From the NCBI GenBank assembly GCA_003284215.1, contig QBVW01000001.1, forward strand, positions 1 through 64,000: a DNA stretch of 64,000 bases, read 5' to 3'. The notes under the pieces were generated by a model. The model saw only the letters and a program-made list of their open reading frames with translations. It had not been told where the DNA came from and ran no database searches. The position numbers and the translations under genes are program-made. Shown here one piece after another: positions 15,913-59,141 of this stretch. This DNA comes from SAR86 cluster bacterium AG-313-D11. GTDB lineage: Bacteria; Pseudomonadota; Gammaproteobacteria; Magnimaribacterales; D2472. Each line of letters opens with the position of its first letter. Within the stretch, counting starts at the first letter, position 1.

Positions 15913-16056
15913 AATTATCTCTAGATTAAAATTTTCAATCTGAAATTATATATTTTTTTACAGCATTAGGCTCAAATATGTTGTTTCTGCATTAATTTAT
16001 TACAAAATAAATAAATCTTATATATTAAAATAATTTAAATTTATTTATCATTTATA

Positions 16057-16084
16057 TTGATATATGATTATAAATATATATAAT
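16057..16084 (+). promoter_or_regulatory. Predicted sigma70-like promoter for the candidate small RNA
   Basis: TTGATA (16057-16062), 16-nt spacer, TATAAT (16079-16084); surrounding DNA is very AT-rich, so chance matches are possible. Confidence 0.55.
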
Positions 16085-16089
16085 GATGT

Positions 16090-16167
16090 TTATCAACACT
16101 TCTCCCCCCCTATGATTTGTTGATAAATCTCTGGAATCATGGAGGGCTTCGGCCCTCCATATCTTTT
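16090..16167 (+). ncRNA. Candidate small RNA with a C-rich hairpin loop and intrinsic terminator
   Basis: Perfect 10-bp stem TTTATCAACA (16089-16098)/TGTTGATAAA (16118-16127) with loop CTTCTCCCCCCCTATGATT, then terminator hairpin. Confidence 0.55.
16139..16167 (+). terminator. Rho-independent terminator hairpin
   Basis: ATGGAGGGC-TTCG-GCCCTCCAT (9-bp perfect stem, UUCG loop) followed by ATCTTTT. Confidence 0.75.
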
Positions 16168-16181
16168 AAAAAAGGTTAATT

Positions 16182-16271
16182 ATGAAAGCAAAGTTTGTCG
16201 AAAAAGTTGAATTAGTCACATTAGTTTCAATATTCATATCTTCTGTTTACGCTATATCTCCATTGGTGTAA
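16182..16271 (+). CDS. Putative 29-aa small hydrophobic protein (not in ORF track)
   Basis: ATG...TAA reads MKAKFVEKVELVTLVSIFISSVYAISPLV; AAAGG-like SD 4-6 nt upstream; directly upstream of the glutathione peroxidase gene. Confidence 0.4.
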   Translation: MKAKFVEKVELVTLVSIFISSVYAISPLV

Positions 16272-16281
16272 TATTTAAAGG

Positions 16282-16806
16282 ATGAAAAATCTTTTAATCC
16301 TTACGCTATCTATACTATCTTCTTCTGTATTTGCATGTTCCGACTTGTTAAACAGCAACCTCAGGGTTTTAGACTCAGATGATGAGTTAAATTTATGTGA
16401 ATATTCAGGAAATGTTGTATTAGTAGTAAATGTTGCAAGCAGATGTGGTTATACGCCGCAATATGCTGCCCTACAAAGAATTTACTCTAAATATAAGGAT
16501 GATGGTTTTGTTGTGATTGGTATCCCATCAAGAGATTTCAAGCAAGAGTTTTCTGAAGAAGCAAAAGTTGCTGAATTCTGCAGCACAGAGTATGGAGTTG
16601 ATTTTCCAATGTTTGCTACTGCTAAGGTAAAAGGTGAAAACGCTCATCCTTTTTATAAAAAGCTTATAGCAGCCTCAGGAAAAGAGCCTAGATGGAATTT
16701 TGCAAAATATTTAATTGGTCGAGATGGTGAAGTTATAGATCATTACAAATCTAGAGTAACTCCAGAATCAGAAAAACTAGTTTCTGCTATCACAGCAGTA
16801 CTCTAG
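16282..16806 (+). CDS. Glutathione peroxidase family protein (Cys type) with signal peptide
   Basis: NVASRCGYTPQYAALQ, WNFAKYLIGRDG motifs. Confidence 0.9.
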   Translation: MKNLLILTLSILSSSVFACSDLLNSNLRVLDSDDELNLCEYSGNVVLVVNVASRCGYTPQYAALQRIYSKYKDDGFVVIGIPSRDFKQEFSEEAKVAEFCSTEYGVDFPMFATAKVKGENAHPFYKKLIAASGKEPRWNFAKYLIGRDGEVIDHYKSRVTPESEKLVSAITAVL

Positions 16807-20720: not shown

Positions 20721-20741
20721 ATTTGTGTTAACTAAAAACCA

Positions 20742-20903
20742 ATTCACCGCTACTCATCGTTACCTGAACCGAAAGCTCAGGTGGTGAAGCTCATACTGCA
20801 TCAGGCTTCCCTCAATGGTAATGCACAACAGCAGCAGTGGAAAATCACCTTTAAATATATTATCGGTTCAAAGAATCTCGATAAGTTGGCGAATGAACCA
20901 GTT
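20742..20903 (-). ncRNA. ssrS: 6S RNA (ssrS)
   Basis: Located between zapA and ygfA on the same strand; closing stem ATTCGCC/GGTGAAT joins both ends; GAACCGATAATAT resembles E. coli GAGCCGATATTTCAT; TATAAT -10 at 20915-20910 (minus). Ends approximate. Confidence 0.72.
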
Positions 20904-20946
20904 AACTTGATTATAAATCAGTTGATATTAAAAAGAGAAGGTTATT

Positions 20947-56848: not shown

Positions 56849-56954
56849 AAGCTCAAATAATAAGTTCCTTTTAAGTATATAGCTTAATAGAAATATTATT
56901 TTTAAGGGATTAAAAAATATAGATTTTATGAAACTTATTTTATAAGATTATATA

Positions 56955-57036
56955 AATTGCAAAGGGGTGGTTTTAACCTGAGATCTATATGAAACCCTTT
57001 GAACCTGATCCATACAATAATGGCGGAGGAATTGCA
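56955..57036 (+). promoter_or_regulatory. TPP riboswitch (THI element)
   Basis: GGGGTGG...CCTGAGATCTATATGAAACCCTTTGAACCTGATCCATACAATAATGGCGGAGGA matches the THI-box core (CTGAGA...ACCCTTTGAACCTGATC...). Confidence 0.93.
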
Positions 57037-59141
57037 TGCAAATCTATAAAAGTATTTTTTTTTCACTTCTCTTTATATTTATAAGCATTGATTTGTTGAC
57101 TGAGGATGTTGAGGAAATAATTGTAAAGGGAAATTGGCGGGAATCTTCAGCGCTTCAGAAAAGCTCTAGCATTGTTATTCTTAATAAAAAAATTCTAGAA
57201 TCTCAACCAGTAAAACATTTTGAAAATCTTTCATATTTAGTTCCAAATCTTAATTTTGCTGCAAGTGACTCTAGAGCTAGACATTTTCAAATCAGAGGAA
57301 TTGGCGAGAGATCTGGATATGAAAGAACTCCAAATTCTGCGGTTGGATTTTTAATAGATGATATTGATTACTCAGGTCAAGGCGGCATAGCAACAACTTT
57401 TGATTTAGAACAAATTGAAGTTCATAGAGGGCCTCAAGGCTCTAGAATTGGTTCTAATGCAATGGCTGGCTTGATTTATTTAAAAACAAAAGAGCCAACT
57501 GAAAAATTTGAGGCAATCAGTGAGCTTACTTCAGGAACTTTTAATACCTTAAATGCAGGGATTGCATTTGGAGGGCCAACTAACTTCAGTGACAATCTTT
57601 CGTATAGACTTGCCCTCAGAAAAGATTATTCAGATGGATTTAGAAAGAACTTGTATTCAGGCAAATCAGATACATCGAAAAAAGATGAAAGCACCTATCG
57701 TCTAAAAATTGACTGGGATTTCTCAGATAAAACAATATTCAAGTTTCTTATTACTCAAATAGACCTAAATGATCCTGCAGATATATGGGCAATTGATGGA
57801 AGCTTGAATACCCTTTCAGATAGGCCCGGAATGGATTCTCAAAAGACAAATGCGTATGGAATAAAAATCTTTCACCAGCTTAGTGGAAAAGAATTTCAAA
57901 GCTTAAGTAGCATGACCGATTCAGATATTGTTATCAGTTACGATGCAGATTGGGGCAACCCATTATCTCATGCGCCATATATTTATGACTATTTTTCAGA
58001 AACTATAAGAAATAGAAAGACTATTGCCCAGGAATTTAGATTAGTTTCAGATTCAGTTGATTTTGATTTAAATAAAAAGACTGAATGGGTTATTGGCATT
58101 AGTTACTTTGATGTTACCGAAGGCAATTATAAAAAGGATGACGGAGTATATGGGGACCCATCTGATCCCTTCGGCCCTTATTTCAGTGAATCTCTATTTT
58201 CAAGCAAATTTTCTTCTGAAAGTTTCTCACTTTTTGGAAATTTAGATTACTTTATAAATGAATCTTTAAAGTTTTCAATGGGAGCCCGATGGGAAAATTA
58301 TGAATCACAATATGCAGATTCATTGGGCGAGTTATTTAATCCATCAGATAAAATGTCAGGTGGAAAAATTTCTCTTAATAAAAATTTAAATGATAGCTCT
58401 AATATTTTTATAAGCATTGCAAGAGGTTTCAATCATGGAGGATTTAACCTTAATCTTGGCCTGGCACCATCATCCAAAAATAGTAACTTGTATTATGATC
58501 CTGAATTTTTAACGAATTACGAAATTGGATTTAATTCTCAGCTCTTTTATAAGATGATGAGTGTCTCTGCTGTAATTTTTTATTCTGATAGAGATGACCA
58601 GCAAGTTTTAATATCTACTCAAGTTGATCCAACAGACCCAAATACATTCTCTTTTTTAACTCAGAATGCTGCGGAAGGAATAAATAAAGGAGTAGAGCTT
58701 AATCTTGATATGAAGCTATCAGAGTCTATATATATCTTTTCAAGATTTGGCCTACTGCAAACAGATATCAATAATTGGAAGTCTAGACCTGATTTGGAGG
58801 GCAGGGCTCAAGCGCATGCACCTAAAAAAAGTTTCGCATTAGGAATTAATTGGTCCATAACAGACAGAGCATCTTTATCGATCGATTTAGTTGGCAAAAG
58901 CAGCTTTTATTATTCTGATTCTCACGATAATCAATCAAAGTCATATTCATTAACAAATATAAATTATGATTATTCAATTGGACGGTGGACATACTCTATT
59001 TGGGCTCGAAATGTATTTGATGAATATTATTCAGTTCGTGGTTTTTATTTTGGAAATGAAGCTCCCGATTTCAAAGACACTCTATACGAGCGACATGGTG
59101 ATCCAAGGCATCTAGGCCTTACAGCGAGATATGATTTTTAA
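57036..59141 (+). CDS. TonB-dependent outer membrane receptor (predicted thiamin-related)
   Basis: Plug-domain motifs (FQIRGIGE, IEVHRGPQGSRIGSNAMAGLIYLKT), C-terminal Phe; directly downstream of TPP riboswitch. Confidence 0.92.
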   Translation: MQIYKSIFFSLLFIFISIDLLTEDVEEIIVKGNWRESSALQKSSSIVILNKKILESQPVKHFENLSYLVPNLNFAASDSRARHFQIRGIGERSGYERTPNSAVGFLIDDIDYSGQGGIATTFDLEQIEVHRGPQGSRIGSNAMAGLIYLKTKEPTEKFEAISELTSGTFNTLNAGIAFGGPTNFSDNLSYRLALRKDYSDGFRKNLYSGKSDTSKKDESTYRLKIDWDFSDKTIFKFLITQIDLNDPADIWAIDGSLNTLSDRPGMDSQKTNAYGIKIFHQLSGKEFQSLSSMTDSDIVISYDADWGNPLSHAPYIYDYFSETIRNRKTIAQEFRLVSDSVDFDLNKKTEWVIGISYFDVTEGNYKKDDGVYGDPSDPFGPYFSESLFSSKFSSESFSLFGNLDYFINESLKFSMGARWENYESQYADSLGELFNPSDKMSGGKISLNKNLNDSSNIFISIARGFNHGGFNLNLGLAPSSKNSNLYYDPEFLTNYEIGFNSQLFYKMMSVSAVIFYSDRDDQQVLISTQVDPTDPNTFSFLTQNAAEGINKGVELNLDMKLSESIYIFSRFGLLQTDINNWKSRPDLEGRAQAHAPKKSFALGINWSITDRASLSIDLVGKSSFYYSDSHDNQSKSYSLTNINYDYSIGRWTYSIWARNVFDEYYSVRGFYFGNEAPDFKDTLYERHGDPRHLGLTARYDF

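Follow-up and report, generated by a model that had tools for sequence, protein, structure and literature searches.

The window analysed (64,000 nt in full) carries an intergenic RNA element upstream of a 29-aa membrane-type peptide ORF and a glutathione peroxidase gene (Table 1). Gene order at this ancestral site is the same family-wide: a fatty-acid oxidation gene, the RNA, the 29-aa ORF, glutathione peroxidase, then rpiA-like and ilvA-like genes, the last two labels being readings of the translations. The peptide ORF is kept in this position throughout the SAR86 family, and its product gives no match in Pfam or NCBIfam. Of 2814 pairwise differences in the ORF, 1618 fall in third codon positions and 273 in second positions, a pattern indicating that it is real; 12 residues are invariant. 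The statement of the initial annotation that no ORF explains the segment holds for the RNA itself, but a genuine ORF begins 22 nt past hairpin 2. A short ORF within the loop (AUGAUUUGUUGA) was discarded, as inspection showed its frame to be lost in relatives.

Table 1. Features of the RNA locus, and other structured RNAs of the window.
Feature	Position	Strand	Basis
Upstream region with inverted repeat TATCA-N7-TGATA overlapping the -35 box; possible regulator site	16036-16062	+	Conservation in 17 genomes
Sigma70-type promoter, TTGATA-N16-TATAAT	16057-16084	+	Invariant hexamers, promoter scan
-35 box, TTGATA (16-nt spacer follows)	16057-16062	+	Read from sequence
-10 box, TATAAT	16079-16084	+	Read from sequence
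Hairpin 1, perfect 10-bp stem	16089-16127	+	Fold, covariation
Hairpin 1, 5' arm TTTATCAACA	16089-16098	+	Read from sequence
C-rich loop CUUCUCCCCCCCUAUGAUU, 19 nt; predicted target-binding region	16099-16117	+	Near-invariant; complementary to AGGGGGA SD sites
Seven C of the loop	16104-16110	+	
Hairpin 1, 3' arm TGTTGATAAA	16118-16127	+	Read from sequence
Linker with CUCUGGAAU motif	16128-16138	+	Conserved in leader-type copies
Hairpin 2 and weak U-tract; leaky terminator or RNA 3' end	16139-16167	+	Fold, covariation, scan
Hairpin 2, ATGGAGGGC-TTCG-GCCCTCCAT, 9 bp, UUCG loop	16139-16160	+	
ATCTTTT	16161-16167	+	
29-aa membrane-type peptide ORF, MKAKFVEKVELVTLVSIFISSVYAISPLV	16182-16271	+	All 17 genus genomes
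Glutathione peroxidase gene (same direction, 10-bp gap)	16282-16806	+	PF00255, E 6e-29; family synteny
6S RNA	20732-20907	-	Rfam
TPP riboswitch	56953-57048	+	Rfam

The promoter, the perfect stem with its loop of seven C, and the UUCG hairpin followed by ATCTTTT had all been proposed in the initial annotation, and each can be read directly at the positions given for it. In a scan the promoter scored 11/12, the best of the region (tied with one minus-strand site), where shuffling leads to an expectation of 3.7 promoter-like sites. Both hexamers are invariant across the 17 copies aligned from the genus. The inverted repeat overlapping the -35 box lies in a region that is conserved in the same alignment, and may be the binding site of a regulator. 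A site resembling this repeat precedes another gene in a sister family, f2 (L018). The predicted RNA fold has an energy of -27.8 kcal/mol (z -5.8), which none of 200 shuffles equalled, and z becomes -6.5 once five more 5' bases are included.

Hairpin 2 is the only terminator-like match in the region (0.2 in shuffles), and ATCTTTT behind its GC-rich stem passes a simple terminator scan. The proposed terminator of the RNA is a conserved hairpin that the scan accepts, but its U-run is weak in the window copy and is not conserved within the genus, where relatives carry CACCTCTTA and the like. Long U-runs (TTTTTTTT) follow the other terminators seen in these genomes, unlike hairpin 2. Copies of hairpin 2 from other genera have a better U-tract, such as TTTTTTT in L081.

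A 301-bp query spanning the site found matches at the same place in 16 other genomes of the genus. In the resulting alignment, the loop (CUUCUCUCCCCCUAUGAUUUG) is near-invariant and the stem bases show paired changes. In an alignment of 51 copies, bases pair in 97.4% of stem cells and changes on both sides were found in 10 of 14 stem pairs; this larger alignment is model-fitted and leans towards structure, whereas the first genus alignment, which also showed covariation, is not. None of 500 shuffles reached any of the covariation measures. The comparison with relatives specified beforehand in the initial annotation thus found covariation in both stems and a conserved C-tract. The covariance model that it had also proposed was built and searched, and detected the element in 20 of 26 genomes of the genus; across one SAR86 family the count is about 92 out of 103 genomes, from some ten genera. 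Five of the six genus members lacking the element also lack the orthologous peroxidase (a 36–41% paralogue or nothing is found), so that their assemblies probably miss this contig; in the sixth (G041), the sequence breaks off with the contig at this very point. AT-rich DNA often holds promoter-like sites, as the shuffling expectation illustrates, and the hairpins could in principle have arisen by chance in an AT-rich intergenic region that contains no RNA gene. This is contradicted by the family-wide conservation, the covariation and the existence of duplicated copies, and is extremely improbable.

Outside this family no convincing match was found. The covariance model found none in the other families of the order, apart from two chance-level matches, and a broader model applied to 274 gammaproteobacterial genomes gave no credible match beyond the SAR86 family. 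Those weak matches in other Gammaproteobacteria or SAR86 families that were inspected are ordinary terminators, with neither a C loop nor a promoter; L077 and L097 are chance matches in which promoter and C loop are both absent, and weak opposite-strand matches at element positions are self-complement artefacts. When 85,462 named species were scanned for the exact pattern, 46 stretches matched. The structured element is present in 41 of these, all from records whose titles give SAR86 or unresolved Gamma-/Proteobacteria (including D2474, AAA076-P13 and AAA168-P09). The other five, from Roseibacillus, Anaerospora, Anaerotruncus, Rhodobacteraceae and Mesorhizobium, have no such structure. The carrier family appears to be GTDB D2472, the 'Suzuki' family of PMC11582366. 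No Rfam family matches the element at gathering score, and a relaxed threshold gave chance-level matches alone (E 0.18 or more). Among the papers searched, there was no report of sRNAs from SAR86. Judged by these comparisons, the element is a real and new RNA family belonging to one SAR86 family.

Several genera have an additional copy that shares promoter, loop and hairpin 2 with the first but is not followed by an ORF. Its neighbours are a copper-protein or phosphoribosyltransferase-like gene on one side and, on the other, a convergent gene of exonuclease type, which has its 3′ end towards the RNA. The promoter is retained in both contexts family-wide. A further copy (L069, G170:C10) occupies a third context, again without the peptide ORF. 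Duplication into an ORF-free site favours a trans-acting RNA, and the standalone copies support the initial proposal of a candidate undescribed small RNA.

The RNA might instead be a cis-acting leader or attenuator and nothing else. Its two hairpins would then govern how far the genes for the 29-aa peptide and peroxidase are reached by read-through or translated, and the C-rich loop would sense a protein, a metabolite or, within hairpin 2, the GGAG arm. At every ancestral site, throughout the family, the RNA is upstream of these two genes, which have no room for another promoter. Leader-type copies conserve the linker motif CUCUGGAAU, which standalone copies lack, and hairpin 2 is without a good U-tract in the genus of the window. 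The rule that a cis leader always precedes the same gene or genes, true of the ancestral site, is nevertheless broken by the standalone copies, which retain promoter, loop and hairpins with no downstream ORF. The loop also matches the Shine-Dalgarno (SD) sequences of receptor genes (see below) rather than that of the 29-aa peptide. Pairing of the loop with hairpin 2, suggested in the initial annotation (CUCC with GGAG) as the basis of attenuation and considered here as CUCUCC with GGAGGG, is possible but weak, reaching at most about 6 bp on inspection against the 9-bp stem. An exclusively cis-acting role is accordingly unlikely, though it is the main rival. The attenuator alternative is kept for the window copy, because the peptide ORF and peroxidase have no room for a promoter of their own; both roles may hold, the ancestral-site copy perhaps keeping a second, leader-like role besides trans-action.

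The loop is the complement of AUAGGGGGAG, and evidence for targets came from pattern and family searches. In six genomes, the sequence AGGGGGA occurs 2–13 nt before ATG at 52 sites, compared to 28 for a backward control. The dominant class among the ORFs behind these sites is TonB-dependent receptors, 11 of which were recognised by their plug sequence. When receptor genes were gathered independently via PF07715, and their starts then read with a simple rule for start codons, the SD region contained GGGG in 35 of 72 receptor genes, as opposed to 8 of 227 non-receptor genes from the family (p = 3.5e-18), the hypothesis having been found and tested on overlapping genomes. The longer run GGGGG was seen in 15/72 and 0/227, respectively. 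Among genes having an SD, the GGGG excess of receptors was still 10.8-fold (p = 8e-10). Predicted duplexes with the loop have a median of -11.05 kcal/mol for receptors against about -3.5 to -4 kcal/mol for others. The strongest case, in G055, is predicted to form 14 contiguous bp (-27.5 kcal/mol), with the lineage-specific 3′ side of the loop also pairing. This complementarity to one gene class supports the anti-SD mechanism put forward in the initial annotation.

Genes for a membrane protein of 71–72 aa (L138, G000:C1:310960; L163; L046), which has no family match, carry a leader, ACCAUAGGGGGAAAUUAUG, conserved across three members of the genus and complementary to the loop of the RNA at nearly every position. 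For the 71-aa protein, the predicted duplexes in G000 and G009 are 13/14 bp, at -20.1 and -21.5 kcal/mol.

It could be that the sRNA is conserved and its match to TonB receptors coincidental, G-rich SDs or translation enhancers of receptor genes having causes of their own and the true partners of the RNA being a protein or other mRNAs. Sister SAR86 families that lack this RNA do have G-rich receptor SDs at a similar frequency (19/47 vs. 35/72, p = 0.45), so that the code either predates the RNA and is read by other RNAs, or has another cause. The flanks of the loop also contribute little: the median duplex is -11.2 with the real loop, -10.6 with the loop reversed and -10.3 with its flanks shuffled, while the strong-duplex tail (12, shuffle mean 9.1) was reached in 7 of 40 shuffles and is not significant. 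The pairing consequently rests on the C-run and G-run. Coincidence is harder to reconcile with the rarity of such SDs elsewhere, AGGGG being an unusual SD type in these genomes (GGGG at the SD of 10/367 other genes), with the 13–14 bp reached by some duplexes whose flanks match by lineage, and with the presence in f2 of an unrelated C-rich RNA candidate. On balance it is improbable.

The f2 candidate is a conserved intergenic element (L325:1470-1640, equivalent to G027:C1:307722-307892, and L333) found in 26 of 35 f2 genomes, with no Rfam match. Besides a promoter of its own (TACTATACAAA..TATATAAT), it contains two modules in tandem, UUCUCCCCAGAAAAA..CCUCUCCAAGGU, also described as UUCUCCCCAGAAAAA..CCUCUCC. 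This is possibly a convergent C-rich anti-SD sRNA, which would fit an SD code that is older than the RNA of the window and read elsewhere by other RNAs.

Searches for RNA chaperones, with E. coli as a positive control in each case, did not find Hfq (PF17209) in six genomes of the family (G000, G009, G042, G043, G051 and G055, five of them at least 92% complete), so the element does not conform to the Hfq-dependent sRNAs. ProQ (PF04352) was not found in nine SAR86 genomes, i.e., the same six plus G025, G027 and G029. Lack of Hfq and ProQ is notable for Gammaproteobacteria.

The best explanation, with a probability of roughly 60%, is that the element encodes an Hfq-independent anti-SD sRNA of about 75 nt that acts on TonB-receptor mRNAs and doubles as a leader by read-through. 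Its own sigma70 promoter would initiate transcription close to position 16090, with hairpin 2 as the end point, and hairpin 1 would present an accessible C-rich loop containing CUCYCCCCCUAU. This loop is predicted to pair with G-rich SDs of the AUAGGGGGAG type and to block ribosome binding, needing neither Hfq nor ProQ. The main targets would be mRNAs of TonB-dependent receptors, with a few others, such as that of the 71-aa membrane protein. Part of the transcription at the ancestral site would run on through hairpin 2, so that the RNA would also be the 5′ leader of the peptide/glutathione peroxidase operon. A more far-reaching version has the sRNA as a family-wide master regulator, coordinating much of the TonB-receptor set through an extended SD code without Hfq or ProQ, with the f2 RNA as its unrelated, convergent C-rich counterpart and the leader role at the peptide and peroxidase genes retained; this is a tentative proposal, somewhat more likely to be wrong than right.

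A C-rich single-stranded motif aimed at SD sequences is typical of sRNAs such as CcsR and RsaE, to which no relation was found in sequence, lineage or gene neighbourhood. The SAR86 RNA most likely joins the C-rich-loop anti-SD sRNAs, a known mechanistic kind: its fold and conservation place the C-rich motif in an exposed hairpin loop, and G-rich ribosome-binding sites are concentrated in one gene set, equally so in the sister families without the RNA. A close parallel is sX13 of Xanthomonas, an Hfq-independent sRNA with C-rich hairpin loops that recognise G-rich motifs near target start codons (PMC3771888). Both are short gammaproteobacterial RNAs with a C-rich loop and G-rich target motifs near starts, Hfq-independence being predicted for the SAR86 RNA. 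However, sX13 has three C-rich loops in 115 nt, whereas the SAR86 RNA has one plus a terminator-like hairpin, has no Rfam match, precedes a peptide/peroxidase operon, and is predicted to target mostly TonB receptors. Cyanobacterial Yfr1 uses a CU-rich motif to pair with translation initiation regions and so represses mRNAs for outer-membrane proteins; its validated or predicted targets include porins and TonB transporters, and marine oligotrophs are among its hosts (PMC6974561). Yfr1 is likewise short and strongly conserved with outer-membrane targets (predicted in SAR86), but shows no sequence relation (no Rfam match) and differs in phylum, loop and genomic context. In Caulobacter, the Hfq-independent ChvR binds the mRNA of a TonB-dependent receptor by pairing of its stem-loops at the SD region (PMC6237742); one target is known for ChvR, which has two pairing sites, while a whole receptor class is predicted for the SAR86 RNA.

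Since its loop matches the ribosome-binding sites of outer-membrane receptors, the RNA is probably a shared brake on nutrient-uptake genes. SAR86 is among the commonest groups of surface-ocean bacteria, and the RNA is a candidate regulator of nutrient uptake in streamlined genomes in which neither Hfq nor ProQ was detected. As the RNA is conserved and its predicted targets share one code, it can be tested directly as a regulator, and the new family can be searched for in existing ocean metatranscriptomes.
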